From Aquella oligotrophica (lineage in GTDB: Bacteria; Pseudomonadota; Gammaproteobacteria; Burkholderiales; UBA11063), in the NCBI RefSeq assembly GCF_002892535.1, contig NZ_CP024847.1, forward strand, positions 2,728,001 through 2,792,000: a stretch of DNA of 64,000 bases, written 5' to 3'. The notes under the pieces were generated by a model. The model was not told the origin of the DNA. It saw only the letters and a program-made list of their open reading frames with translations, and ran no database searches. The position numbers and the translations under genes are program-made. Below, in pieces: positions 36,963-54,902 of this stretch; positions within the stretch are counted from its first letter, which is position 1; each line of letters starts with the position of its first letter.

Positions 36963-37874
36963 CTATGAAAATGTAACCAACTGATTTCTACCATTACTCT
37001 TTGCCTGATATAAAGCCTTATCTGCAATGGCAAGTACATTAGAAGCAGCGTCGAGTTTAAAGGGCAGAAATATTGCAAGACCAGCACTAATGGTAATAAA
37101 TGGACTAACCTTTGAATAAGCATGCTGGATTTGAAGTTTCTCTACAGCCTTAATCACTTGATCTACTAGTGAAATAACTTCTTCTTTTTCTAACTCAGGT
37201 AATACCAAAACAAATTCTTCCCCACCATAACGAGCAACAAGTGCCCCCTTAACCATATTCACGTACTTTTTCAGACATTTTGCTAGCTCAATCAGACAAA
37301 CATCCCCCATGCCATGCCCATAATTATCATTATAGTTTTTAAAATAATCAACATCAATCATAACTAGGGAAAGTTTCTGTTGCTGTTTTTGACACTCATC
37401 TAAAATAAGAGGTAGCCTACCATCCAGATAACGACGATTAAAAATCTGGGTTAATCCATCTATTTGGGCAAGCTCTTCCAACAAATCACTTTTAAGTTTC
37501 AAGCTCACCTGATTCCGCACACGAACCTTGACAATTGCGGGATGAAATGGTTTGATTATATAATCAACCGCCCCAAGATTAAACCCAGCTTCTTCATCGT
37601 CAACATCATTTTTGGCGGTCACAAATATAATGGGAATCTTGTTGGTATTATTTTCCGCTTTTAACCTTCGGCAAACCTGATAGCCATCGATAGTCGGCAT
37701 GACAATATCAAGTAATATTAGATCTATTCTTTCCCCCGAAGAAGCAATCTCAATAGCCTTTTCACCACTTGTTGCAACCTTTAGGTGATAATCATTTTTC
37801 AGAATCTCAGATAATATTTGGATATTTATAGGTGTATCATCTACAATCAAAATAGTAGCTTTATATTGATTCAT
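36963..37874 (-). CDS. Response regulator with GGDEF diguanylate cyclase (PleD-like, one receiver)
   Basis: 303 residues from ATG 37874. The N-terminal receiver has acidic D12-D13 and the phosphorylation site D56 (in LILLDIVMP), and K109-P110 matches KPF. The GGDEF domain has the metal site D174-D176 (MIDVDYFKN), [10 protein letters not shown] and the intact active site GGEEF at 217-221. The inhibitory RxxD is absent (KGAL in its place), so product feedback may be lost. The start ATG lies inside the end of the upstream hybrid-kinase gene (14-base overlap), so the kinase is its probable partner. It should make c-di-GMP when phosphorylated. Confidence 0.93.
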
Positions 37875-40668
37875 GAGACTCCACTCCACTAACAAAAATA
37901 TTTAAGCCATGTACTCTCAACTCATGCTGTAAACCATTAGAAAGCTGTTCCAGCTTTAATATCTCAGAATCATTAGGAGTTTTCCCATTCTTTATTGAAA
38001 GTTCAAGTTTAGCAAAAAAATTTGCTAACCCAGTGACATAAAGATTGGCACATGCTCCACGTAAAGAATGGCTGGCTCTAAATAACTCATCAATACTCCT
38101 GAGCTCTGACTCACCACACAACAAGATATATTGCTCTATTTGCTGCAATAGTTTAGAAAATAATTTAGCTAATAATTCATGGTTATTGGCGAAAGTTCTC
38201 TCAATACTCCCCCAATCTATACCCAAGATGGAATCCAAATTTGGAATAACTATCGCGTCTCCCTCTTGATAACACCAGTGAGCAATTTTTGTGTATAACT
38301 CCTGCATGTCAATTGGCTTAGCTATATGATCACACATTCCTGATGCAAACATATTTGCTTTATCCTCAGCCATAACGGTTGCAGTTAAAGCAATTATTGG
38401 TAATTTAGGATTAGCTGCATGGATCAGCTTTGCAGCATCATAACCACTCATGATCGGCATTTGGAGATCCATTAATATCAGATCAAATATTTCATTTTGC
38501 TCAATAATGAAGTTAACTACCTCCTGACCGTTATTGGCAATAGTTATCTGCGCACCTACTCTGACTAGCATGGCAGTAACTACTTCCTGATTAATTTCAT
38601 TATCTTCAGCTATCAAAATTCTGAGGGTGCTAAAATCTGTAATCGCAGTATTTACACTAGTATATTCATTATATGAATAAACTCCTTTTAGTGCATCCTC
38701 CATTGACTGAAGTAACATATGTGGTAAAACTGGTTTTTGTAACAAAGTAATTTGCTCATTATTTCCTAAATTGATTTCCTCACTAGAATATGCACTAACT
38801 ATCAATACTGAAGGAATCTGTCCTTTTATTAACCCGCCAGCAGCAAGCTTGCGAATTTTATTAATTGCATCTAACCCATTCATACCAGGCATTCGCCAAT
38901 CCATCAGTATAAAATCAAATCCTTGGTTTTCAGATTCAACCAATATTTTTGCAATTGCATTTTCAGCACTATCCGCTTCAATAACTTCATAGCCATTTTT
39001 TAATAAAATTTCCCTAAGAATATCACGCGCAAGCTCCTGATCATCAACAATCAGAATTCGCTTACCATGCCCTACAGATAAAGCTTGGGAATTACTCTCC
39101 TGCTGTATATGTCTAACAATAGGCAAGCGCAACTGGAAATAAAAAACCGAGCCATGGTTAAGCTTGCTGTCAACCTTGAGCTGACTACCCATTTCCGCAA
39201 GTATTTTGCTACTAATAACTAACCCCAGACCTGTACCGCCATATTTCCTAGTAATAGAAGAGTCCGATTGGGTAAATGGCTTAAATAACCGTGATAGCTG
39301 TTCTTCACTAATTCCAATTCCAGTATCTTTTATACTAAATTCAATCAAGGCCAGATCATCGCCTGACTCTAGAAGATTAAGTTTAAGCTCAATATAGCCT
39401 TTTTCGGTAAATTTTATCGCATTACTCAATAAATTATTAATCACTTGGGTCAAACGTAATGAATCTCCAAGCAATTCTGTAGGAATATCATCATGCATCC
39501 GTACATAAAACTCAAGCTTATCCAAATTTCCATTAGTTACAGAAAAAACAGTTACTATCTGATGGATTAACTCGTGAAGATTAAATGGTTGCTGCTCAAG
39601 CTCCAGTTTACCCGACTCAATCTTAGAATAATCTAAAATATCATTGATTATACCCAGTAGCAATTTTGAAGAGGCGGTGATTTTTTGCAGATACCCACTC
39701 TGAATATAGTCTAGTCTAGTTTGTAATAAAAGTTGACTTAGTCCAATAACTGCATTTAACGGTGTCCGAATTTCATGACTCATATTCGCCACAAACGCAC
39801 TTTTTGCAATGCTCGCTGCCTCGGCTTCTGCTTTTGCCTGAATCAACTTAGTTTCATAACTTTTCCGCTCGGTAATATCCTGGAGTACACCATAAACCCG
39901 GTAGCATTTACCATTCTGCATTTCGGGAAACCCTTTGCATCTAACCCATTTCTCATTACCCAAATAAGTAACAATAATAAATTCATCATCAAATGGAATA
40001 CCATTTTCAATCGCATTGCCAAAAAGTCGAATTATTTTGTCCCGACTTTCTCCTTCTTTATAAAAAGAAACCCCATCTGTAACTGAAGGCTGAAATCCAG
40101 CTGGTGTTTCATGCATTTGCGCGGTATATTCACCCCAATATACAGTATCACGTCCAACATCATATTCCCAACTACCAACCAATACCAATTTTGCCGTCTC
40201 TGCCAAAAGTTTTTCACTATGTTTAAGCTTATCATCAAGTTCAACAAATTTGGTAATATCCTTGGCAATTCCCAAGTAACCTGTAATTTGTCCATCCGCT
40301 CCCCGAAGAGTAGTAATAGTTAATTCAACTTTTATCCTGTTAGCATCTTTGCCAATCCATGTCCATTGACCAATATCCGGTGCGCTAGTCATCCTTGATT
40401 TATGAATAAAAACCTCAAATCCAGGATTTATCCGACATATAGACTCCCTTGATAACTCACTGGCTTTTTGCTCAATTTCGGTAGAATCATGAAATATTGT
40501 CAATGAATTAATACCAATCATTTCTTTGGCAGTATAACCAAGTAGTTGCTCGGCTCCATGATTAAAAATTTGGATAACTCCATTAATATCAGTGGAAATT
40601 ATGGCATAATTTGTGCTATTTAGGATCTCACCTATCTCAGGTATTACATTCACTTTATTTATTCTCAA
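37861..40668 (-). CDS. Hybrid sensor histidine kinase PAS-PAS-HisKA-HATPase-REC-REC-HPt
   Basis: About 935 residues, soluble with no membrane segment. Two PAS domains (about 15-140 and 155-268) precede the dimerisation domain with phospho-acceptor H298 ([14 protein letters not shown]). The HATPase_c domain has [21 protein letters not shown] and [10 protein letters not shown]. Then come two receivers, each with a DWRMPG or DLQMPI phospho-site, and a C-terminal HPt domain with ASHSLRGAC. Both PAS domains and the core are paralogous to the adjacent giant kinase, so it looks like a tandem duplicate that lost its membrane input. The start TTG at 40668 overlaps the upstream gene; GTG at 40653 is an alternative. 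Confidence 0.93.
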
Positions 40669-43600
40669 CTAAAGATTTTTTTATTTCATTTCCTAGATTA
40701 ACCGCAGCATCAAAAGCAAAGTTTTCAATCAGACGGATAAACTGATGAATTAATCCCTCAACAAAAGATCCTTTAGCCATGAAATCTAACTGTTTTAGGT
40801 CATCATTTTCAACAATTTCATTAACTGAAATTACCTGCATAACTTTATCAAGTATTTCCAAAATCGAGTCAGTATTAGTTGAAAAAGTATTCAGTCCACC
40901 ATATTCTGCATATAAGCTATTTTGTAACTTATTTAATTCAAAATTGAACTGCGTGATTAACTTATTCAAACTCTCATAATTTGTTTGACTAAAGCCGCTA
41001 TCAGACTTGGTTTCTTCTTCCAAACTACTAAATAATGTAAAAAGTGGATTTAGTCCTAAATTACCAGCAGCCCCCTTGAGAGAATGCAGCAAATTACAAA
41101 TTTGGCTTTGAGAGTGTTTCTCTATACTGCTAGCTAAAAGTAACATAGCTTCATCAAGCTGTATACTAAACTGCCCAAATAACTTCAATGCTTTCTCAAG
41201 GTCACCATTTACCACAGTTTTTATATACTCTAGATCAATAATAAAATCAACATATTGCTGAATCTGTTTTTCTGACATTTCTGCCTCAACACCAAGATCT
41301 ACCTTCAACCATTTGGCAACTGTCAAATATAGTTTATTTGTTTCAATAGGTTTTGCAATATGATCACACATTCCCGAATTCAACATCAGTTTAATATCTT
41401 CACTCATAACTGTTGCCGTTAAAGCAATAATCGGCAAATTTGGTAATTGTTGATGAATAATAGTAGCAGCCTCATAACCACTCATCACAGGCATTTGTAA
41501 ATCCATTAAAATCAGATCTATTTTGGCAGAATTGTTATTCGTAACCATATTTACTGCTTCAAGCCCATTATTAGCGATCATGACTGTTGCACCGATCTTA
41601 TTCAACATAAGACTTGCAACTTCCTGGTTAATCAGATTATCTTCAACCAGCAAAATATTTTTACCTAAGAGTGAAACCAATTGTGGTTTAGCTTCCGGCA
41701 TTTCCTGCAAGGTACTATTGATACTAAGTTGCAGAGCATTAATCAGCATTCCACGCGTCACTGGTTTAGTAAGTAAAGCAACATCATCTTCTTTGGTCAA
41801 AGCTATCTCATGTTTTGAGTACGCACTTACCAGTAAAATTGTTGGCGCAGTTCGCCCCAATACTCCCTCTTTCGCCATTAGCTTTAATTTACGAATAGCA
41901 GTTAAACCATTCATGCCAGACATTTTCCAATCCATAATTACAAAATCAAAGCCACTGTCTTTATCTGACAATATCATGGTCAAAGCTTCCTCAGCACTCT
42001 GTGCCTCAGATACATTCTGGCTAAGTCCCTCGAGAATATTTCGTAAAATATTTCTGGTTATGGGTTCATCATCAACAATCAGAACTCTTTTGCCCCTAAT
42101 TTTAGTCAATCCTCCCTCTTCAGGAACATCTTCGTATGGCAGGTTTAAGTTGAAACTAAATTTAGAACCAATACCGGACACGCTCTCAAGATTTAATTCA
42201 GACCCCATAACCCGCAGAATCTGGTTACTGATGACCAACCCCAGTCCAGTTCCGCCATATTTACGGGTAATCGAGGAGTCTGATTGGCTAAATGGTTTAA
42301 ATAGTGACTGCTGTTGCTCCTCAGCAATACCGATACCAGTATCTTTCATCGAAACCAGAAGTGAGACGGTTTTTTCCGGCGGATTAATCGATAATAAACT
42401 AATAGTCAGTTCAATTTTACCTTCTGGAGTAAATTTAACGGCATTACTAAGTAGATTTGTCAGGACTTGTGCAATCCGTAATTTATCACCAAAAAGATTT
42501 TGGGGAACATTATTATCAACATGGATAAAAAATTCAAGATTTTCAGGAGAACGATTATTTGCAATAAATATAATTATCAACTGGTTTAAAACTTCATCAA
42601 GATTAAATCTCACCTTTTCAAGCATTAACTTGCCAGCCTCAATTTTTGAATAATCAAGAATATCATTAATTATCCCTAGTAGCAATTGTGAAGAATTGAT
42701 TATTTTATTAACGTAATCCTTTTGAATATGATTAAGCGAGGTATCTGTAAGTAACTGGCTTAATCCAATAACTGCATTCATTGGAGTTCTAATCTCGTGG
42801 CTCATATTAGCGACAAAATTACTTTTGGCAATGCTTGCTTCTTCGGCAGCTTTTCTTGCTGCAATCAGGTTTGCTTCATACTCTACCTGCTGACTGATAT
42901 CAACTACTACCGACCAGATAACTTCGCGACCAGTATGATCAGTGGTCAAAATACCATTTAGCAGAACTGGATAACAGCTGCCATCTTTCCTGATGTATTC
43001 TTTTCTATACGGACCATAAAGACGTGTTGCTTTTAAGGACTCCAACTGAATCTGCTCTTGCTCCTGATATTCAGAAGGGGTTATATCCCAATAATCACTT
43101 TGTTTTATCTCTTCAAGAGTATAGCCGATTGAATTAAGTAATGAGTTATTGGCTTCAAGAAAAGCACCTGTCGCAAAATCATTCATGGCAATACCAACTG
43201 GCGATAATTCAAACAGATTCTGGAATTTTTCCGCAGTTTTTTGCAATTCATTCTGCAATATCTTATAGTTACTGATTTCTTGATGAGTACCATACATTAA
43301 TTCAGGCTTCCCATCATTAGTCCAGGTAGTAACTTTTCCACGATCAAGCACCCAGACCCAATACCCATCACGATGCCGCATACGTATTTCACAAGCATAA
43401 AATTCAGATTTGCCAGTAAAATGCTCCTGCAATAATTGATTTCTACGAATTTTGTCATCCGGATGCATACATTTAGTCGAGGTGTTTATATCTGTAGGAG
43501 CTAACTCCTCCAATGTATAACCGATTGTTTCAGCCCATTTTTTATTAAAAATAGTCGCACCAGTTTGAATATTCCACTCCCAAGTGCCAAGACCAGTACC

Positions 43601-46600
43601 ATCAATCATATAGCCCAATCGTCCACGCTCAGCATCCAATTCCCGTACCAGATTGACCCGATCTGAGATATCATGGCAAACTCCGTACATTCTGAGGCAG
43701 ATTCCATTTTCCATAACCGGAAATCCTTTGACCCTCATCCACTTATAGTTACCCTGATAACTGACTGCTCTAACCTCAATATCAAAGGATAAACCACTAG
43801 CCACACTTTCCATAAACGATGAATTCACTTTATCACGATAGTAACCTTCTTCATAAAACCGACTAACATCGGCTTCATAGGAAGAAAGATAATCTAGTGG
43901 TGCCTCAAATAACTCATACATCGTCTTAGTCCAAAGCACTTCGCCACTAAGCAAATTAACTTCCCAGCCACCAATCAGCCCCATCTGTCCAGTCTGTTCA
44001 AGTAACTCTCGGCTAAACTTTAGTTTCTCATTAGCAATTACCAGCTCAGTAATATCTTTGGCAATCCCAAGATAACCATAAATTTCACCATTTTTATCAA
44101 AAAGAGCCGTTACACTTAATTCAACTTGTAACCGACTGCCATCTTTTCTGATATATGTCCACTGATTAGTATCTGCACCACCTAAACGCGAGCGATAAAC
44201 AAATACTTCAAATCCCGGAGCAATAGCAACATTAAATTCAGTAGACAGCCTATCTGCCATTGCCGCAACCTCTGCTGAATCATGAATAATTGCTGGAGTT
44301 TTTAAATTAATGACTTCGCTTGCCGAATAACCAAGCATCTCCTCAGCACCAGTATTAAAACTTTTAATGATCCCATTACAGTCGGTAGAAATTATTGATT
44401 GTTTAGCTGAATTGAGAATTGCATTTTGTAACCCGGACATCTGAATAATTTCATCCATTAATCGATGCTGTTCAGTCACATTGGTAAATGTACCAACTAC
44501 CCGGCGAACCACGCCATCCTGGTCTATAATTCCACAACCACGAACAATTAACCATAACGTCTGGCCATTTTTATGATGAAATCTTGCAGTTAACCGATAT
44601 GGAATCTTATCTGAAACAGCTAGGTGGCTTGCCTTAGTGACCATTTCAGCATCTTCAGTAAAAATAACCGTCTGCCATAGCCCAAGGTTATCATCCTTAA
44701 ACTCATACTCTTCATAACCGAACAAGATACGAACGTTTTCACTATAATATACCGCCCCAGTCTCAACATTCCAATCCCACCAGCCATCATTGACCGCATT
44801 TAAAATAGTTTGATATAACTGCTCATTCTGAGTAAACATCACTGCACTAGCATTTTGCTTCTCAAGTTCATGTTCAAGCATTACCTGATGGCTAATATCG
44901 CGAAAACTGGCATAACAAACTAATGGATTGCCCGAAGAAGCATCTCGCTGTATCCCTATTTTGGCGCTAACATGTAGTTTTGATCCATTATAAAGAAGCA
45001 AAATCAGCTTCTGATCATAAATATCACCAATTAACATTTGTTCAAACATTTCGGTTGAAGCGGCGTGACACTCTTCAGCACATAAGATGAAGATTGACTG
45101 ATTAATTAAATAGGTCTTATCCGGATAACCCAGAACATTAACTAGCGTATCATTACAATTAAGAATAAGGCGGTTCGAGTAATCAAAGGTTAAATATAGA
45201 TCTGGAGCATTTTCATAAAGCAACATGTATTGATGTCGGCTCTTATTTAACAGCTTCGTCCGTCGGTACACCAAGCGCTTAAGGTTACGGTTACTCTGAT
45301 TAATCGTATAAACTAGAACAATCAACAATGAAGAAAGCACACTGACTAATAAGCCAAAAACCAGAAATAGCAATGGCTGAAAACTCATCGGATGCTCATT
45401 AATATATTGCTGGCTTGGCCAACTATCGATCTTCATTACTGCGCCATTAACTGGATATGCAGAAGTAGTTAAATGATTAAGAAAATTATTTACCGGATCA
45501 GTTGTCTTTATTTGCTTAAAAAGCAGTTGATTATCTATAAATATTTTAAAATTAAGCTGCCCTAATCCACTATCATTATCAATAACTCGCTGCAAAATTT
45601 TGTCTATTTTTAGTAGTGCCAGCTGCTGGATTTTACCTTTATAATTTAAACACCAATAATAGGTATTGTGAAATAGAATTGTATCCAAACTAGCATTAGC
45701 TGATAAGCCAGTTATGCCTCTGCAACTGCTTTCGATCTGTGCCAATTGCTCTGAATCAAAAGGTGTCACGCTATTTTTTATATGACTAACACCAATATTA
45801 TCAACGACTTTCAGCAAAACTAGCTCATTAAAATTATTCAAATAACTTTGGCTATCAGTTTCCCATAAAGCATTGTTAAAACTATCCACAGCCAAACGCC
45901 GATAAAATCGTTCAAGGGCAAGAACATCAGCTTTAAACTCGTTAGCAAGATTGGTAACTAAAATCTGATTATTGCGAAGTAAACTATCAGCATAAAATTT
46001 ATGCGCACTGAGAATTAGTAACTGCCATTGAAAAATTACAAAAGTAACCAAAACTGCAAAGAAAGAGAGTGCTGATGCATATATTTTTATTGCCTTAAAA
46101 CGAATAATTTCTCGATAGATAAATAAAAATTGGGTCGTAGCAAGTAAAAAAATACCTATAGCGGTATGAATTGCAATACCAATTGAACTAACCCAAGAGT
46201 AAAGAGATGGGAGATGAAAAGCATAACCAACCATTGCAAGCGAGCTTAGAATAAAAGCAATTGCGATTAAAAGCAGCTGGATAAATAACATAATCGTCCG
46301 GTAGGAACGAACTACATTAAAAATTAGCGCTAGATTTAGAACAATAAAAGAGATGGCTGTAGTTGGGGACATTCGTCCAGGTAAAAATGCTACTTTGTTA
46401 AGATAGATCTGAAGCACAACAGAATCAATTCCAAAGTTAATACCAAACAGATACTCGGATAAAGTAAGAATATTAATTATACCTGAAAGATAACATGAAA
46501 ACAAAAACCAGCGATGCCTACCCAAGCGAAGTGTAATTGCAACTCCGCTTAAAAAAAAGCATAATGCAGTGTTAAACTGCATCGGAGAGTAACTGGGTAA

Positions 46601-46720
46601 AATATGAACAATTTGGCTACTCTGGATACACCAGCCAAACATTACAAATAAACCAAGAGACATGATAATTAAAGCCAGAATCTGAATAATTAGTTTAAAT
46701 CCGCCAGTTATATTTTTCAT
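40655..46720 (-). CDS. Giant membrane hybrid histidine kinase with six PAS domains, two receivers and HPt
   Basis: About 2021 residues from ATG 46720 (preceded by GAGAGTGG; a TTG four codons upstream is also in frame). The N-terminus has about seven membrane segments (residues 10-230) with the recurring [12 protein letters not shown] motif, then an extracytoplasmic region (about 235-445) and one more helix (about 450-473). Six PAS domains follow (about 500-1275), then HisKA with H1308, HATPase_c ([10 protein letters not shown]), receivers with D1597 and D1740, and HPt with H1879 ([10 protein letters not shown]). It is a full multi-step phosphorelay in one chain. It lies 14 bases after the GGDEF-EAL gene and overlaps the next kinase. 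Confidence 0.93.
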
Positions 46721-46734
46721 AACCACTCTCAATA

Positions 46735-48093
46735 TTAACTCTGACTATATTTTTCCATGTGCAGTTGACAGGCATCTATAAAGGCTAGCGTTTGCCCAAG
46801 TATATATCCCTGAAAATATTTATAACCTATTCCCTGTAATATCCGTAGCTGTTCAAGAGTTTCAATCCCTTCAGCTACCAAATCAATATTCATTTTTCTG
46901 GCATAAAAGCTGATAGCTTCAAAAATTGCCAGACTATTTTCATAATTATCATGCCGAGGATTTAATGCTCGGGCAAAAGACATATCCAACTTTACTGTAT
47001 CAAAACGACATTCCATGAGGCGCTGTAAAGAGGAATATGCAACCCCAAAATCATCTAATGCCAACCTGATACCAAATTGGTGGACTTTTTCGATTAATTG
47101 TCTGAAGAAATGAGAGTTTTTGGCATCATCAGGCATAAGCTGATTTTCAGTAATTTCAAATTCCAGCTGTACATTTTGAAAAAGCTCTTTATTTATAACA
47201 TAAACTTTTAATAGCTCATCAACATGTAGTAAAAAATTCTCGACTGACAAGGCTAGATTTATTGATATTTTTAATTGGGTAGTTGAAAGCAAATGAGACC
47301 AGCATTCATTCTGAAGAAGAAGAATAACCTTGTCTAGCATCAACTGGTTTAGTTTACTACTGAAGCCATTTTCCATAATATAGTCAATAAACATGTCTGG
47401 ATTAAGTATATTACCATCGAGATCAAGTCGAACCAACACCTCATAACCAATAATCTGATTTATATCAGTTCCAACAGGCTGCAATACAATAAAAAAACGG
47501 TCTTCATCAAAGAGTTTCTGAATTGCTGCCGGAAAATCAAGTTTATTATATGATAACTCACTATGCACTGGATCAAATTTAATTAGATTTATTTTTGCTC
47601 TTTTGGCAAAATTGATACTGCTTGCCAGGGAGGAGTAAAGATTATTTACATTAAATGACAGATTTAGATTAAGCAGATAAGCAAGGCGAACACTACATTC
47701 AAGGATATTGCCATTTACATGATATGGAGTAGACAGTGTTTCATAAAGCCGCTCGAGTAATTCCAAATCTACATTATCACTTACAAGTATCATAAATTCA
47801 TCACCATTCATCCGGATTAGCACCTGCTGATGATTAAAAAATTCACGAATCCTCATACATAATGAGATTAAAATTGAATCTCCTGCTTGCAAAGAGTAGA
47901 AATTATTTATCTTGGCAAATTGATTAATATTTATCAAAATTGCATTTAATGGCTTTCCAAGACTAAGCGTACTAGTCACAAACTCATCAAGCATCTCCTG
48001 ATAGAATGCACGATTATAAGATTGAGTCAACTCATCATAAATACCCGATGAATGAAGATTATTCTGCTTCCCTGAAATAGAATCTGCTTTCAT
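46735..48093 (-). CDS. GGDEF-EAL protein, probable c-di-GMP phosphodiesterase with inactive GGDEF
   Basis: 452 residues, no membrane segment. The GGDEF domain is degenerate: NGDEF at 96-100, and the metal Asp of the usual DIDxF is replaced (LININQF). The EAL domain keeps the catalytic set: E218 (in EVLVR), N289, the EFEITE acid, D347-D348 (DDFG), K368 (VKLD) and E408 (AEGIE), plus Q428. I predict hydrolysis of c-di-GMP to pGpG, possibly activated by GTP or c-di-GMP at the GGDEF. Its ATG overlaps the HlyD-like stop by four bases (ATGA), so the two are coupled. Confidence 0.93.
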   Translation of the reverse strand: MKADSISGKQNNLHSSGIYDELTQSYNRAFYQEMLDEFVTSTLSLGKPLNAILININQFAKINNFYSLQAGDSILISLCMRIREFFNHQQVLIRMNGDEFMILVSDNVDLELLERLYETLSTPYHVNGNILECSVRLAYLLNLNLSFNVNNLYSSLASSINFAKRAKINLIKFDPVHSELSYNKLDFPAAIQKLFDEDRFFIVLQPVGTDINQIIGYEVLVRLDLDGNILNPDMFIDYIMENGFSSKLNQLMLDKVILLLQNECWSHLLSTTQLKISINLALSVENFLLHVDELLKVYVINKELFQNVQLEFEITENQLMPDDAKNSHFFRQLIEKVHQFGIRLALDDFGVAYSSLQRLMECRFDTVKLDMSFARALNPRHDNYENSLAIFEAISFYARKMNIDLVAEGIETLEQLRILQGIGYKYFQGYILGQTLAFIDACQLHMEKYSQS

Positions 48094-49115
48094 AATAAAA
48101 CTTCCACCTCAATACCATTTACTTTATACGAATCAGGAAACCCACTTTCAGGCTTAATCACAATTACCGGTTTCCTTTCATTTTGACTACCAACCAAATC
48201 AACACCTTTATATAATTTATCGGTAAAACTGGGGATATTCTCGATAATTCCGCTAGCAATGCCTTTATTTGGCAAAATCAACCTGACTCTAGCACCTGCA
48301 TGCACCCTTGCTAAATATTTAGCATCGACAAACGCTAATACTCTAAATTGATCCTGACTTGAAATCACCAAAATATTCTTGTCTTTCGCAACAAACTCTC
48401 CACTATGAACTGCAATTTCCTTAATCGTACCATTAGTTGGCGCAACTAGATTTAATAATTCATTTTGTTTATTTTTATCTATCATTTCCAGTTCAATTTT
48501 GCGAATATCATCATCAAATACCTGAGCCTTATTTACCTCAAAATCAAGTTTGGCTTGAGTGATTCTTGCCAAAATCATTTTATATTGCTGTTCAGCATTC
48601 AAGTATAGCTGCCTGGCATCGTGCAGCTGCAATAAAGTAACAATGCCCTGTTTCTGATAAACCAACAAATTATCATAATAGCTCTTACTGGTTTTTATCT
48701 GCCCTAATGCCTGCTTCTTTAACTCTTCAAGCTCAGCTATTTCTGGATTTTGATAAGCATTTTTCTGTTGTAAAAGAGTTTCCATCTGGCGGCTTAGGGT
48801 AGTAATCTGACTTTCAAGAACTGGTGATTTTAGTTTAACCAAATTCATGTTTATTTTGACCTTATCACCCTGAAGATAATTGATTGATTCGACATAACCA
48901 TCGATAGGAGCATTGATATTAAATTCCTCCGCTACTACAACTCCTTTTGCATGCGGATAGAAATTGTCATAAACAATTTTGCCAACAAGATAAATCATTG
49001 GTAATAATAAAAAAACAGCAAGTAAGTACCACTGTAATCGTGGAATCAACTTCTTGCCAAGTCCATACTCGGCTTTACTATTTGGATTGCGATTAACCTG
49101 TTTCAATTTGAACAA
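48090..49115 (-). CDS. HlyD-family membrane fusion-like protein, polysaccharide type
   Basis: 341 residues. One membrane anchor at about 29-51 (LQWYLLAVFLLLPMIYLVGK), then a lipoyl-like half (EFNINAPIDGYVESINYLQGDKV, quoted in part), a coiled-coil hairpin (about 100-210), a second lipoyl-like half (LVAPTNGTIKEIAVHSGEFV) and a beta-barrel portion. The architecture matches the periplasmic part of Alg44-type proteins that sit beside family 2 glycosyltransferases, but there is no PilZ domain. It lies 4 bases after the glycosyltransferase gene, as in alginate-like synthases. It may couple polymer extension to passage through the periplasm. Confidence 0.85.
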   Translation of the reverse strand: MFKLKQVNRNPNSKAEYGLGKKLIPRLQWYLLAVFLLLPMIYLVGKIVYDNFYPHAKGVVVAEEFNINAPIDGYVESINYLQGDKVKINMNLVKLKSPVLESQITTLSRQMETLLQQKNAYQNPEIAELEELKKQALGQIKTSKSYYDNLLVYQKQGIVTLLQLHDARQLYLNAEQQYKMILARITQAKLDFEVNKAQVFDDDIRKIELEMIDKNKQNELLNLVAPTNGTIKEIAVHSGEFVAKDKNILVISSQDQFRVLAFVDAKYLARVHAGARVRLILPNKGIASGIIENIPSFTDKLYKGVDLVGSQNERKPVIVIKPESGFPDSYKVNGIEVEVLL

Positions 49116-49119
49116 AAAA

Positions 49120-50442
49120 TCACTCCCTATTTTTAAGAACCCACCACGGAGCCATAGAACTATAGCGATGGCTATTTAAGGTTATCTCATAGATAATTGC
49201 TATAGCAGTCCATATTCTCATTATGAACTGATAGATTGGCATCAAGAATAAATATGGAATCGTCAAAAAATCTCTACGTTTCCGTTCTGAAACCATTGTA
49301 ATAAATATCACAAAATTTAGAAATGTAATTAATAAATAATAGAAATAGGTTAACAGTAATAAGGTTAGCACAAAATTTAACTGAAAGTTAAATAATATAT
49401 AAGGAATATAGACTAGTATCGACAAGGGTACTACCAAATTAAATAACAACCCTCCCCACATCAAAAGAAATGATGTAGTAAACCGCATAAAGGATGAAGT
49501 AAGCCTCCCCCTGTAACGTTTAAGCCAAACATAGAACATATCGCCATCCCAACGTAATCGCTGCCGGAACAAAACACGCCAGCTTTCTGGGGCATCTGTA
49601 TGGCTAACCAACCGTGAAGAGTGAAGAAGTCGCAATTTATGATAACGCGAAAACATCGACTGAATCCGAATAGTCAAATCAAGATCTTCTCCCGAACCAG
49701 TACGCCATCCCCCCATCTGTTTAAGCATTGTTTTACGAAAAAAACCAAATGCACCTGAAATTATATTCAAGCTATTTAATTCAGACAAGCCCTGTCTGGC
49801 AAGATTTATTCCAAGTAGATACTCAAGATTTTGCAGATTGGTCACAAGATTCTTACTGGCATTTCTTACTCTTACTGCACCACTTAGCGCAACAACACTT
49901 TGCTCAACAAACATCTGTGCTGCGACCTGTATCGATGTGTTATCACAGGAGGTCTCACCATCGAGAACCATAATAATTTCGCCTTTTGCCAATTGCAATC
50001 CCAAATTCAATGATGAAACCTTTCCTCCTCGAATATATTTAGGAATGACCCTAATTTCACGATTAGGAACATTTCCATAACTTTTAGCAATTGCTAATGC
50101 TGCAGCATAAGTATGCTGATTTTGTTTAGAGCCATCAACAATTACAAGAATTTCAATATTACCAGAGTAGATCTGTTCAACCAGAGAACGAATTGATAAA
50201 ATCACCCCAGTACCCTCGCTGTAGCATGGAATAATACAGCTAATCGTTGGATAATACAATGGATAATTTGGACATCGACTAAAGCTTGCTAATAAAAATT
50301 GACGTAAAATTGTCAAAATAATTATCAGATAATAGGGTAGTTCAATAAGTAAGACAATTGTAAATAGCCCCATCAAAAATTGATAACGCCCAAGTTCCAA
50401 GATGGCTGTTGATATTACTATCAAATAAGAATGAAAATCCAT
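49120..50442 (-). CDS. Membrane-bound family 2 glycosyltransferase (processive, BcsA/Alg8-like)
   Basis: 440 residues. Two membrane segments at the N-terminus (about 5-50), a cytoplasmic GT-A domain, then about four segments in 310-425. Catalytic motifs are D103 (IVDGS), D161-G-E (MVLDGETSCD), GED at 251-253 and Q(R)LRW at 294-298. These make it a processive synthase of the cellulose/chitin/PNAG/alginate class. It lacks a PilZ domain. The sugar used cannot be told from the sequence. Its start overlaps the stop of the TackOD1 gene by one base, and the HlyD-like gene follows after 4 bases. Confidence 0.9.
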   Translation of the reverse strand: MDFHSYLIVISTAILELGRYQFLMGLFTIVLLIELPYYLIIILTILRQFLLASFSRCPNYPLYYPTISCIIPCYSEGTGVILSIRSLVEQIYSGNIEILVIVDGSKQNQHTYAAALAIAKSYGNVPNREIRVIPKYIRGGKVSSLNLGLQLAKGEIIMVLDGETSCDNTSIQVAAQMFVEQSVVALSGAVRVRNASKNLVTNLQNLEYLLGINLARQGLSELNSLNIISGAFGFFRKTMLKQMGGWRTGSGEDLDLTIRIQSMFSRYHKLRLLHSSRLVSHTDAPESWRVLFRQRLRWDGDMFYVWLKRYRGRLTSSFMRFTTSFLLMWGGLLFNLVVPLSILVYIPYILFNFQLNFVLTLLLLTYFYYLLITFLNFVIFITMVSERKRRDFLTIPYLFLMPIYQFIMRIWTAIAIIYEITLNSHRYSSMAPWWVLKNRE

Positions 50443-51737
50443 TATTTAAACCATAACTCACGGAAATCTAAATTAACTATTTGATCTGCAGCATAGGCAT
50501 TTAGTTTAGGCTCTTTCTCGGCATTACTAAACGTGGTCATTATGGATTTCATTAATTTCTCTTTGATTATATTTCCATCAATAACGGAAGATTTAGGAAA
50601 AAGAAAGAGAACTGTACCTAATCCAGAATTACAATATAAATCGGTAGTCCGTAGGGTCATTTTAAATGTTTGAGACAATTTACGGAAATCTAAGTCATCA
50701 TTTTTTAAATCCAGCTCTAGAACAAGCATATTAAAATGTTCATCTGAATGCCGTTTATACAGACGAATTAACCATTCCAGCATTTGTAAAAAATAATCCT
50801 TGTGCGCATAATTTAACTTATCAAATAAATATAAAGTTTCACCTTTTATATAGCTCAAAAATTTACTGTCATTACCAATTTTTATCTGGTAAGCATGATA
50901 AGTATGTTTTGGTAATTTGTTAATATCATTAGCCAAATGCCCACAGCTTATACATAATGCAGAACTATTACCTTCAATAAAAATCTCCTGACAATTCAAA
51001 CATCTTGAGCTTTCCAGCGGATGATCATAATCATCACCGATCAGTTTCAGCTTAGTCCGACAATTATTACAGCGTAAACCCTCTGGTACAATAAACTCAA
51101 TTTCATTAGCAACATAGCCACATTTAAAGCAATGGACAAATTTACTTTCAATAATATTGCTACTATTACAATGGGGACAGTTTTCTGAAAACTTCAATAA
51201 TTCAGACTGACAAAGACTACAACAGAAACAGTTATCGATATATTTTTTATCAGTAATTAAATTTAACTCTATCAACTCATTAATGATACTGTTAATTACG
51301 CCATAATCAATTTGGAAAAGTTGCTGAAGAAGATAAGTATATAATTGTGCCCCAAAAACCCCGGGTAATGGTATTAATGCTTCCGAAGGATAAAGAAACA
51401 GGTATTTTAAAGCCCGATGATACGTGTCATCGAGCTTTAAATCATCAAGCTGCTGATAGCGAACAAGAAGACTTTTAATTTCAGTAAAAAAATTTGCTGT
51501 GGCAGCAAATTCGAGATTGGCATAAATGGATTTACCGTTAATACTAACTACTGGTTTCAACCAACCCAAATCAGCCCGTAACCTAGTCACCAGCTTACCC
51601 AGCTGAATCTCAGCCCCATCAATCAAAATAAAATCATAATCTTCAATTTTATCTGGCAATGTATCTGCTAAACACTGCCGAACATTTAACTCAGGATGTT
51701 CAATTACAATACTACCAACAACAAGCACCTTAAACAT
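50442..51737 (-). CDS. TackOD1-type metal-binding protein with degenerate GGDEF-like C-terminus
   Basis: 431 residues. The first 110 look like a receiver-type fold (FKVLVVGSIVIEH, DYDFILIDG). The middle has six CxxC pairs (C173/C176, C187/C190, C203/C206, C223/C226, C246/C249, C262/C265) with HCFKCGYVANEIEF, LRCNNCRTKLKLIGDDYDHP and CLNCQ, matching the TackOD1 zinc-ribbon domain described by Makarova and colleagues. The C-terminus (about 335-390) resembles a GGDEF fold in which GGDEF has become GLGTV, while R363xxD366 sits exactly five residues before it. That I-site could bind c-di-GMP. The domain family call is from recalled motifs. Confidence 0.8.
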   Translation of the reverse strand: MFKVLVVGSIVIEHPELNVRQCLADTLPDKIEDYDFILIDGAEIQLGKLVTRLRADLGWLKPVVSINGKSIYANLEFAATANFFTEIKSLLVRYQQLDDLKLDDTYHRALKYLFLYPSEALIPLPGVFGAQLYTYLLQQLFQIDYGVINSIINELIELNLITDKKYIDNCFCCSLCQSELLKFSENCPHCNSSNIIESKFVHCFKCGYVANEIEFIVPEGLRCNNCRTKLKLIGDDYDHPLESSRCLNCQEIFIEGNSSALCISCGHLANDINKLPKHTYHAYQIKIGNDSKFLSYIKGETLYLFDKLNYAHKDYFLQMLEWLIRLYKRHSDEHFNMLVLELDLKNDDLDFRKLSQTFKMTLRTTDLYCNSGLGTVLFLFPKSSVIDGNIIKEKLMKSIMTTFSNAEKEPKLNAYAADQIVNLDFRELWFK

Positions 51738-51789
51738 GATTTAAAAAAACTCCTGTAGTAAATAAGCTGGCAATTATATGCTTTACGAC

Positions 51790-52401
51790 TCAATACCTTT
51801 CCCAACTTTCAACTTCTTTATCCCGGCTAAAAACATTTATTAGCAAATTAACCAGCAAAACCAACCAAAGTACTGGATCAAGCAAATAATCCCAAAGATT
51901 ATTTGAAGATTGCAGATGTAGATAAAACCCAAATAAAGCCACAACCAGCACTAATCCCAGCCGACGATTAGTTAACATTAACCCAAGGCTTAGAATAAAG
52001 ATTATCCATAACATCAACCATGGTAAATAGCCATATGAATAAAAATCAATTTTAAAGAAACCAAAAGTAGATAAATATAATAGAAGCCCAACTATGGAAA
52101 TAGCCACTTTTTCTACACTGTTTAATACAGGTGCTTTGCTATCACTAACATCAAACTGGTTAAAGATAATTAATATCAGTAGAACCCCGCTCGCAGTGCT
52201 AACATCACCGATTACCCCCCGCACCAACTCAACCAGCGAACTACCACGGAATAAAGGAATAAAATTAACCCCTAGAGTTAGAAGTATAAACAATAATGAA
52301 CTAAAAAACAATGACCTTTTAGGAAGCTGAGACAAATATACCAGCAATAAAGATAATGCCATGGTATAAATAATTTGCTGGAAAAAATCAATGCTTAGCA
52401 T
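51790..52401 (-). CDS. Unknown polytopic membrane protein of the exopolysaccharide operon
   Basis: About 203 residues from ATG 52401, which follows AGAGATTAATC; ATG 52416 is also in frame but has a poor ribosome binding site. About seven hydrophobic segments cover most of the chain, for example IIYTMALSLLLVYL, LFFSSLLFILLTLGVNF, GVLLILIIFNQF, AISIVGLLLYLSTFGFF and LWLVLLVNLLINVF. I recognise no family. Its start overlaps the sialidase-like gene's end by 14 bases, and it is followed 52 bases later by the TackOD1 gene. A role as a polymer export or acyl-transfer partner would be guesswork. Confidence 0.75.
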   Translation of the reverse strand: MLSIDFFQQIIYTMALSLLLVYLSQLPKRSLFFSSLLFILLTLGVNFIPLFRGSSLVELVRGVIGDVSTASGVLLILIIFNQFDVSDSKAPVLNSVEKVAISIVGLLLYLSTFGFFKIDFYSYGYLPWLMLWIIFILSLGLMLTNRRLGLVLVVALFGFYLHLQSSNNLWDYLLDPVLWLVLLVNLLINVFSRDKEVESWERY

Positions 52402-53539
52402 GATTAATCTCTTCATTAAGCCAGTTACGGTTAAACCTTACATGTTTAATGTTCTGACGATTGTTGGTATATAAAATATCAATCAGATTACCATTAACCT
52501 GAATTGATGGATACGAAAACTCTTCACCTGGCTTATCTTCAAGCTGATAAACTGGGTGCCATTCGGTTCCATTATATGAAATAGCTAGCCATAAATGAGC
52601 GCGACTAATATCATTATAAACCATTAGCATCCGACCATCATTCAAACTGACAGCTGCTATTGAGGCATCTGGATTGGTTAGATTAGTTGGCTCAGGATCA
52701 GACCAATGCATGCCTCCATCAGTAGTTTGTGAAGTATATAAAATCCTTGATTCACTATCATTTGCACTATTACGGAAGAATGTCCAAGCATTTAAACTAC
52801 CCACTGGAACCAAACTCGGTTGTAGCATTTTGTTTTTATTGGTAATTCGGATTTGCTGAATAAAGTTACCATCAGCATCAAACCTTAATAATTCAGGATA
52901 TTTGCGGATAAATTCATGATAAACAGGCAAATAGAACCCGCCATCAGATAATCCGATCGCAGAAGTCCGAACAAGCGTACTTATATTAAAAAATGGGCTA
53001 ATAACGATACGTTCAGGTGATGTCCAATGTAACCCATTATCTTGTGACTGCAAGTGATTTAGTGCACTTCCAGACCAACCACCGATACTCACGGATACAA
53101 CAAAAAGATGTAAAACTCCATTAGCTGCACGATAAATAACCGGATTACCAACTTTGATCACATAACGATGATTCGCTTTGGCAATCATTTGTGGATCAAC
53201 CAATGAAGTTGCCATATCCCATTTGCCATTATGGTAAGTAGAATGCCAAATCTTAACATCTGGCTGCCCCTCTTTGGTACCAGCAAACCAGAAAGCGAGG
53301 AGGTCATCATTTGCAAGCATAGTAAAAGAAGAACTGTGTGCAGCAGGTAAATATAGAGGCTGTGGAATTATTGCAGACTCAAAAAGTAAGGCTCTGCTTG
53401 ACATTGACCTCACCGGAGAAGTTGATTCTATAATAAATCTAGGTTTTGCAATCATATCATGCTGCCGCTTCTGATAAAGCAAAAACCCAACCAGAAACAA
53501 TGCTATAATGCCAACAACCTTACCGAACTTATTTTTCAT
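52388..53539 (-). CDS. Membrane-anchored BNR-repeat, sialidase-like protein
   Basis: 383 residues with a single N-terminal anchor (about 8-22). The rest is a six-bladed-propeller type sequence with Asp-box motifs: SQDNGLHWTSPE, TTDGGMHWSDPE and SYNGTEWHP. In this family (GH33-like exo-alpha-sialidase or related BNR proteins) the propeller often carries hydrolase activity, but I did not confirm the arginine triad, so substrate and activity are not proven. Its ATG overlaps the stop of the Gfo/Idh/MocA gene (TAATG). In the operon it could trim or bind the exported polysaccharide on the periplasmic side. Confidence 0.8.
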   Translation of the reverse strand: MKNKFGKVVGIIALFLVGFLLYQKRQHDMIAKPRFIIESTSPVRSMSSRALLFESAIIPQPLYLPAAHSSSFTMLANDDLLAFWFAGTKEGQPDVKIWHSTYHNGKWDMATSLVDPQMIAKANHRYVIKVGNPVIYRAANGVLHLFVVSVSIGGWSGSALNHLQSQDNGLHWTSPERIVISPFFNISTLVRTSAIGLSDGGFYLPVYHEFIRKYPELLRFDADGNFIQQIRITNKNKMLQPSLVPVGSLNAWTFFRNSANDSESRILYTSQTTDGGMHWSDPEPTNLTNPDASIAAVSLNDGRMLMVYNDISRAHLWLAISYNGTEWHPVYQLEDKPGEEFSYPSIQVNGNLIDILYTNNRQNIKHVRFNRNWLNEEINHAKH

Positions 53540-54555
53540 TAAAAACTACGTTTATCCAAAGCATTAATCTCAGATACCAACTGGATAACATCATGAGTAT
53601 TTTTTATCGCAAATAAGTCTGGATTATGAATAATTTGTTTATACAGTTCAGGATGGTGCGGACACGCCCCAATTGTTACCTGATTATCAATAGTCACCCC
53701 AAGAACCTCAGAACATATCCGTTTATACCGGGCTAATCGTTCAGGATCAAGAAATTCGCAGGCAACAATCTGATCTAGAGATCTACCACCAAGCTTTAGA
53801 TACCCTTCACTACCCATAATGGTCAAAGATAACTCAATATTACGTGGCTCAGCTGCAAGCGATACTTCCATTGTTCCACCAAATGAGCCAAAATCAAATA
53901 AGGCATAAGTAGTATCACTGACATCAGTACCTTGAAATTTGGTATAAAAAGAATTTGCAGCTAAAACCTTGGGGGTTCCAAGTAACTGTTGCATAATATC
54001 TAGGTAATGGATACCAAACTCAAAAAGAACTCCTCCACAGCTACTATATTTACCACGCCAACCACTAAAATAGTCGAGTGGACGCTGCCAACGCTGAATC
54101 AAACCAACTCCTCGAATATCGCCTAATAGCTCCTCTACCATGATTCGTTTTGCGATAGCAATAGATGGATTAATCCTTACTTGTAAAACGCAAAAAGCAT
54201 CAACATTATATCTAGCGGCAAGAGACTCAAGTTCCAAAACCTGATTAGCATCAAAAGACACTGGTTTCTCAACGATAATTGATTTGGATGACTCTAGTGC
54301 TTTCTTTGCCTGCACATAGTGTAGATTACTTGGAGTCAAGATTACAATACAATTAACTTCAGAGTCTTGATAGACCTCTTCTTCACTGGAGTAATACTTT
54401 AATTCAGGAAGTTGGGAACGCCATTTATCAATTACTGAGGCTCTAGGGTCAAAAAGACCAATAAACTGATAATCTTCAGGATATGCCTGTAGTGCAGCCA
54501 AATGACGACTAAAAATTGCTCCGCCACCCAAAACTGCCACCTTATACTTTGCCAT
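53539..54555 (-). CDS. Gfo/Idh/MocA family oxidoreductase
   Basis: 338 residues from ATG 54555; the frame runs on upstream into yhbY. The NAD(P) site is AVLGGGAIFSRHLAAL near the N-terminus. EKPVSFDANQVLELE carries the conserved lysine of the EKP motif. The C-terminal sheet domain has GGVLFEFGIHYLDIMQQLLG, with the usual GxxxDxGxHxxD-like arrangement altered to FEFGIHYLD. The family oxidises or reduces sugars and sugar nucleotides. In this operon it is likely to prepare or modify a precursor. It starts 4 bases after the yhbY stop codon. Confidence 0.88.
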   Translation of the reverse strand: MAKYKVAVLGGGAIFSRHLAALQAYPEDYQFIGLFDPRASVIDKWRSQLPELKYYSSEEEVYQDSEVNCIVILTPSNLHYVQAKKALESSKSIIVEKPVSFDANQVLELESLAARYNVDAFCVLQVRINPSIAIAKRIMVEELLGDIRGVGLIQRWQRPLDYFSGWRGKYSSCGGVLFEFGIHYLDIMQQLLGTPKVLAANSFYTKFQGTDVSDTTYALFDFGSFGGTMEVSLAAEPRNIELSLTIMGSEGYLKLGGRSLDQIVACEFLDPERLARYKRICSEVLGVTIDNQVTIGACPHHPELYKQIIHNPDLFAIKNTHDVIQLVSEINALDKRSF

Positions 54556-54559
54556 TTCG

Positions 54560-54859
54560 CTACTCTTTGGGTAAAGTGATTTTCTGCTTCTCACTAGGTT
54601 TAAACAATATTATCTGCTTACCAATATGTTGAACAAACTGTGCTGCTGTTTCTGTCAAAAGTTGTGGGATAAGAGCTTCTCGAACTTCTCTGTCATCACT
54701 CATCACCTTAATTTTAATTAATTCGTGTGCATTAAGACTTGATTGAATCTCTTTAATAACCGAAGGCGTCACGCCATTATTGCCTATCATTACCACTGGC
54801 TGAATACCATGTGCCAACCCTTTTAAATATTGGCGTTGTTTAACCGTCAATTCACTCAT
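54560..54859 (-). CDS. yhbY: YhbY-type (CRM) RNA-binding protein
   Basis: About 99 residues from ATG 54859 (MSELTVKQRQYLKG), which has GAAGG at good spacing; an in-frame GTG four codons upstream is also open. The CRS1/YhbY core is PVVMIGNNGVTPSVIKEI and HELIKIKVMSDDREVRE, with GKQIILFKPSE at the end. Homologues bind pre-50S ribosomes. It is the first gene of the run that continues into the polysaccharide and signalling genes, 4 bases ahead of the oxidoreductase gene, but a housekeeping RNA role is more likely than a role in the pathway. Confidence 0.9.
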   Translation of the reverse strand: MSELTVKQRQYLKGLAHGIQPVVMIGNNGVTPSVIKEIQSSLNAHELIKIKVMSDDREVREALIPQLLTETAAQFVQHIGKQIILFKPSEKQKITLPKE

Positions 54860-54902
54860 AAAAACCTTCACATCCTATTAAAATTATTGAACCATAAGGT
54901 TC

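Follow-up and report, generated by a model that had tools for sequence, protein, structure and literature searches.

Eleven tightly packed minus-strand genes in a 64,000-nucleotide window of the Aquella oligotrophica genome (positions 2,728,001-2,792,000 of the single-contig, 2.82-Mb genome; window coordinates are used below) bring together a polysaccharide synthase, cyclic di-GMP (c-di-GMP) enzymes and phosphorelay proteins. Do these genes form one polysaccharide system, and is that system new? The original prediction proposed a single undescribed system with built-in control. We consider it likely that the run is instead a composite, consisting of a native four-gene block, then a probably acquired cassette of the type known as Mxd in Shewanella oneidensis, and then a c-di-GMP and phosphorelay gene set. 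The explanation stands on homology, gene order, domain and motif content, and predicted folds.

The core of the cassette is formed by three genes. The first (50442-51737) encodes a putative c-di-GMP receptor predicted to combine a receiver-like N-terminal fold, a zinc-ribbon TackOD1 domain (PF18551, E=1.7e-43) and a dead GGDEF domain. The second (49120-50442) encodes a membrane family 2 glycosyltransferase (GT2) of 440 amino acids (aa), a polysaccharide synthase (PF13641) with EDLD and QRLRW motifs seen in an alignment of eight synthases; in a profile comparison with the PDB it matches hyaluronan and cellulose synthases. The third (48090-49115) encodes a HlyD-like periplasmic adaptor of 341 aa (PF13437, HlyD_3; PF16576). 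The synthase aligned with MxdB at 40% identity over 416 columns; in single comparisons, the TackOD1 protein aligned with MxdA at 27% over 319 columns (E=1e-29) and the adaptor with MxdC at 25% over 360 columns (residues 4-339 of 341, E=6e-26). The A-B-C order and tight packing are shared with our reference locus (L250), the gaps in the window being -1 and 4 bases (negative values denote overlaps). By these sequence comparisons, TackOD1-GT2-HlyD belongs to the Mxd system as a distant member, its genes being homologues of mxdA, mxdB and mxdC. Because of this homology to S. oneidensis mxdABC, the claim of an undescribed system is not supported, and the TackOD1 protein, which had been thought foreign to any such system, has its counterpart in MxdA. 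The broader expectation of a c-di-GMP-linked, synthase-dependent exopolysaccharide system with adjoining signalling genes held up, and the predicted domain assignments agree with Pfam.

The reference locus, in genome G1047 at 4.35 Mb, consecutively encodes a 462-aa TackOD1 protein, a 442-aa GT2, a 362-aa HlyD-like protein and a 122-aa open reading frame (ORF). G1047 belongs to the same genus as G812, which scored above the cut-off of the NCBI Shewanella DgcS model (460 vs 400 bits) and was the sole passing genome among 26 handles (listed under two); the synthase is present in 13 of the 77 genomes of that genus, G812 included. The TackOD1 protein of the reference locus carries the string NVDEF at residue 358, presumably the motif reported for MxdA, and RVTD at residue 387. 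An active GGDEF motif usually starts nine residues after the arginine of the inhibitory site (I-site), and by this spacing NVDEF lies elsewhere than an active motif would. The 122-aa ORF, mxdD, was found only in L250, L251 and their sub-loci L236 and L237, that is, in two of six stretches fetched from the same genus, and hence was not treated as defining Mxd. No mxdD was found in the window by tblastn at E 1 with the default low-complexity filter and the 122-aa query, a search that a divergent short protein could escape.

How widely does this core occur? When 84,980 species genomes were scanned with the alignment of eight synthases, 315 relatives emerged, and the best 80 were retained; by their record labels these belong to Pseudomonadota, Thermodesulfobacteriota, Synergistota, Planctomycetota, Lentisphaerota and Myxococcota, with one Pedobacter-labelled bin. 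TackOD1 was called in 74 of these 80 loci, HlyD in 70 and GT2 in 72; among the loci lacking a call, two are contigs about 3 kb long and in two others the gene seems to be masked by a longer ORF in a different frame, and neither TackOD1 nor GT2 was called in L101. Two apparent TackOD1-GT2 fusions, an 851-aa ORF in L090 and a 716-aa ORF in L132, were rejected: their N-terminal parts look like an out-of-frame TackOD1 gene, so 74 of 80 probably understates the number of loci with TackOD1. Eleven further loci picked by TackOD1 brought the set examined to 91 (three contigs occur in both sets), and wherever TackOD1 and GT2 were both present they lay on the same strand within 200 bases in 77 of 79 cases. 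The GT2 set of relatives leaves out the duplicate contigs L063, L065 and L066 and GT2 ORFs shorter than 380 aa.

Two surveys made with the TackOD1 Pfam model alone, of 274 and 398 genomes, yielded 25 near-complete TackOD1 loci outside the window, a count that leaves out G191 and G214 (above the cut-off over 70 and 43 model positions) and matches below the cut-off. A GT2 match was present within the 1.5-kb flank in 24 of the 25; 14 of these GT2s are close relatives and 10 are distant (30-36% identity; L020 is a short match of 84 bits), and the eight query synthases include those of seven of the 25 loci. The distant GT2s stand beside TackOD1 in other lineages (L018, L019, L020, L223 and L227-L232). 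The one locus of the 25 without a GT2 neighbour, L013 (L013/L062), has a near-complete TackOD1 with receiver- and kinase-like ORFs downstream.

The MxdA of S. oneidensis is reported to bind c-di-GMP, and the mxd operon to build biofilm matrix. In the window protein, the I-site reads RTTD (Arg363 and Asp366). Across 82 aligned TackOD1 proteins, the I-site RxxD is kept in 78, with L065 and L097, short ORFs without that region, counted as non-matches, while the active-site motif GG(D/E)EF occurs in none. This pattern points to the TackOD1 protein, as the MxdA homologue, being the system's candidate c-di-GMP receptor. A different role, as a zinc- or redox-sensing synthase scaffold in which the dead GGDEF domain is only structural, seems unlikely to us. 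It would fit the twelve cysteine columns kept at 98-100% in the same 82 proteins, since TackOD1 is defined by cysteines whose role has been called obscure (PMC5847659), and MxdA is said to control c-di-GMP levels only indirectly (PMC3691769). It sits poorly, however, with the retention of both I-site residues in proteins that lack the active-site motif and with the reported binding of c-di-GMP by MxdA, and scaffold and receptor roles can coexist. Of three plasmid records examined, one carries no annotation at this place, and the other two, from Plesiomonas shigelloides (L200:7980-9335) and Aeromonas caviae (L202:5773-7155), name the TackOD1 protein 'diguanylate cyclase', a name that looks wrong given the absence of GG(D/E)EF in the 82 relatives. 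The cassette or the receptor can thus be plasmid-borne. The phrase 'Thaumarchaeal output domain' was not found in the literature searched.

Which known systems does the putative receptor-synthase pair resemble? The PelD receptor has a GAF domain. In Pel the receptor is likewise a dead GGDEF with an intact I-site, a similarity of working rather than of membership: the window has TackOD1 with a receiver-like fold and one GT2 synthase with a HlyD adaptor, and no pel family was found among the eleven proteins of the run, the range over which pel families were compared. GT2 synthases that bind c-di-GMP or bear PilZ are described for Nfr of E. coli (NfrB-NfrA) and for cyanobacterial XcsA-XcsB-TolC, where XcsB resembles HlyD and TolC has been proposed as the channel (PMC8669469, PMC12430437). 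Unlike the window synthase, which has only GT2-type Pfam families at E 0.01, these carry the c-di-GMP domain (MshEN or PilZ) within the synthase. The PilZ domain of the cellulose synthase BcsA was thus also absent from the 440-aa protein, and its score against the NCBIfam model for the poly-N-acetylglucosamine synthase PgaC/IcaA was 120.2 bits, below the cut-off of 422.3. The cassettes of Nitrosomonas, Desulfobulbaceae, Comamonas and others have the same TackOD1-GT2-HlyD genes. A Francisella sp. locus (L117) carries TackOD1-GT2-HlyD-GGDEF-EAL in a row, with no kinase domain within two genes. Compared by description, the c-di-GMP gene cluster FTN_0451-0456 of Francisella novicida belongs here as well: FTN_0453 is described as a homologue of genes in a Shewanella/Vibrio cluster (PMC2358893, PMC9763628, PMC3952080), the first of these papers making the comparison with a citation of Thormann 2006.

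Export across the outer membrane is the part for which the run itself holds no gene: as the original prediction noted, no outer-membrane factor is encoded among the eleven. In relatives, a gene present in 54 of the 91 cassette loci is predicted by modelling to encode a TolC-like channel joined to a GH18/PgaB-like barrel (for example L096:11239-13434; loci L071-L150), among them cassettes of the Nitrosomonas, Desulfobulbaceae and Comamonas type, and this modelled fusion is a candidate for the absent outer-membrane part in those lineages. A Nitrosomonas-type query for the fusion gave no match in the window genome, in a search run without a positive control. The same genome does have TolC-type genes unlinked to the run: a PF02321 search gave 26 stretches that pair into 13 ORFs, none of them inside the window coordinates. 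No description of the TolC/GH18 fusion was found in the accessible parts of the literature searched; work on MxdA and mxd was not found to mention the fusion or TackOD1, most subscription papers being outside that search. About 2 kb below the run lies a GH20 hexosaminidase-like gene (32653-35016, PF00728), which could, as pure conjecture, act on an amino-sugar polymer.

Does the whole run belong to this system? All eleven ORFs were found where they had been predicted, and the gaps between them, from low to high coordinate, are -35, -14, 2, -4, 4, -1, 52, -29, -1 and -35 bases. The predicted ceiling of 52 bases on the gaps is correct. The predicted overlaps of 1-14 bases are exceeded by the longest ORFs, which overlap by up to 35 bases; the overlaps of 29-35 bases depend on that choice and shrink with later start codons. 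The widest gap, 52 bases, separates the TackOD1 gene from the last of four genes upstream of it: yhbY, for a ribosome-assembly protein (54560-54871; TIGR00253 above cut-off, CRS1_YhbY), a Gfo/Idh/MocA oxidoreductase gene (53539-54594; PF01408, GFO_IDH_MocA), a BNR/sialidase-like gene (52388-53539; PF13088, BNR_2) and a gene for a 208-aa membrane protein outside the Mxd core (51790-52416). The longest yhbY ORF begins with GTG at 54871, and position 54859, where the original prediction placed the end of the run, is an in-frame ATG. No Pfam family lies above cut-off in the 208-aa protein, which has only a weak Wzy_C match below cut-off (E 0.008).

The dense packing with overlaps could suggest that all eleven genes make up one undescribed polysaccharide system, in which the sialidase-like and oxidoreductase proteins trim or make the polymer. 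We regard this as very improbable in view of the neighbourhood searches, which divide the run. BNR matches at E 0.001 were found in 17 of 22 congeners and YhbY matches in 14 of 22; incomplete genomes are common among these congeners, and two of the matches are weak or partial. The four upstream genes recur together in congener stretches, of which 16 were read; the 208-aa gene adjoins BNR in 12 of the 16, and in these stretches, several of which end soon after the 208-aa gene, no TackOD1, GT2 or HlyD match was listed at tblastn E 1e-8; matches to the kinase and GGDEF queries below 100 bits were not listed. Two congener stretches were read more closely; in both, ordinary genes follow the 208-aa gene, and they differ between the two stretches. 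Conversely, homologues of BNR, GFO, YhbY and the 208-aa protein were not found among the ORFs of the 91 cassette loci (phmmer E 1e-5). Conservation of the whole run as one system is therefore rejected: the yhbY-GFO-BNR-208-aa block is native and separate and, because it occurs in congeners without the cassette, its genes probably lie outside the polysaccharide system. The block as such (51790-54871) recurs in the genus.

The synthase had no strong match in the whole genomes of the 22 congeners (best E 1.7e-6). Since no close synthase exists there, the cassette was probably gained, and a gain in this genome is probably a simpler reading than loss in the congeners. G+C differs little: the three core genes stand at 0.346 and the signalling genes at 0.362, against 0.377 in the native block and 0.371 across the window.

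The remaining four genes follow the cassette directly. A GGDEF-EAL protein (46735-48093; PF00990, PF00563) has NGDEF in place of the GGDEF motif and retains the EAL-domain residues looked for, and is more likely a phosphodiesterase. It is followed by a membrane hybrid histidine kinase of 2025 aa (40655-46732; Pfam: multiple PAS, HisKA, HATPase, two REC, Hpt) and a second hybrid kinase of 935 aa (37861-40668; Pfam: PAS, HisKA, HATPase, two REC, Hpt), which blastp shows to be paralogous to the first kinase's C-terminal half (39% over 978 columns); H-box and Hpt motifs are present in the kinases. The last gene (36963-37895) encodes a REC-GGDEF protein (PF00072, PF00990). With a GGEEF motif and no RxxD I-site before it, this protein is likely an active diguanylate cyclase free of product inhibition. 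The tight packing of the eleven genes argues for their co-transcription. Promoter and terminator scans of the run returned counts close to those of shuffled sequence (76 vs 73.3 and 11 vs 10.3), so these scans were uninformative.

Are these signalling genes the cassette's own control? The window differs from S. oneidensis Mxd in having no mxdD found, in the native block upstream and in the four signalling genes that directly follow. The mxd genes of S. oneidensis answer to BarA/UvrY and ArcS/ArcA (PMC3691769); as phosphorelay control of Mxd is thus already known at the level of transcription, what sets the window apart is physical linkage. It is possible, though we think it the less probable reading, that the signalling genes became co-transcribed by an accident of insertion and serve a cell-wide c-di-GMP pool or another target, with other cyclases controlling the Mxd cassette. 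Many cassettes stand alone among unrelated ORFs, which would suit such an accident. In the window, however, the signalling genes are joined to the cassette by gaps of at most 2 bases or by overlaps, and S. oneidensis MxdA contacts the response regulator CheY3 and the cyclase PdgA (PMC7666153, PMC11395469). In 82 loci, GGDEF was also commoner within two genes of the cassette than farther away (12/293 vs 5/631 genes; Fisher p 0.001), as was EAL (8/293 vs 1/631 genes; Fisher p 0.0006). These counts rest on mechanical ORFs and leave out L063, L065, L066 and loci with fewer than two core ORFs.

Several findings weigh against our composite reading or parts of it. The TackOD1 and HlyD-like proteins share little identity with MxdA and MxdC (27 and 25%), and the reference locus is identified with mxd of S. 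oneidensis MR-1 by inference. L081 has lost the I-site and L128 half of it, and no outer-membrane partner is linked in the window. Only 8 of the 82 loci have c-di-GMP genes within two genes of the cassette, and kinase and receiver domains show no enrichment there (HKc 1/293 vs 12/631 farther away; REC 4 vs 17); the small number of loci and the lack of kinase enrichment also favour an accidental insertion of the signalling genes. The kinase pair is joined to the cassette in no other of the 91 loci. The nearest parallel is L139, where a kinase-like ORF lies three genes away and a REC-GGDEF-like ORF four; in some Nitrosomonas loci, kinase-like ORFs occur on the opposite strand at a distance of a few genes. 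Kinases as a conserved companion of the cassette are thus not supported by the neighbour counts. Built-in control by the adjoining signalling genes, as originally proposed, remains plausible, with this single operon as its basis.

Under the composite reading, we infer the following working. The two hybrid kinases would act as sensors and relay phosphate via their REC and Hpt domains to the REC-GGDEF protein, which would make c-di-GMP that the GGDEF-EAL protein removes. Binding of c-di-GMP to the I-site of the dead GGDEF domain in the TackOD1 protein would then switch on the membrane synthase, and the growing chain, perhaps of a hexosamine type, would exit by way of the HlyD-like adaptor and a TolC-like outer-membrane channel encoded at an unlinked site. 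More tentatively, bacterial TackOD1 may represent a general class of zinc-ribbon c-di-GMP receptors that gate family 2 synthases. In the window, this class would be coupled to a phosphorelay of its own, the receiver-like domain offering the kinase-fed cyclase a place to dock; in many other lineages the polymer would leave through a TolC channel with a built-in polymer-cutting barrel.

In the accessible parts of the literature searched, the Mxd polymer, its export route and its receptor domain are not described. What is new here is a distant Mxd core that lies behind a native block and is joined to its own candidate control genes. The comparison ties TackOD1, a Pfam domain of 'obscure' function, to Mxd, extends Mxd over several phyla and puts forward a candidate outer-membrane exporter whose fold is of a sugar-cleaving type. 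In A. oligotrophica, a single operon unites kinases, cyclase, phosphodiesterase, putative receptor and synthase, and may be tested as a unit.

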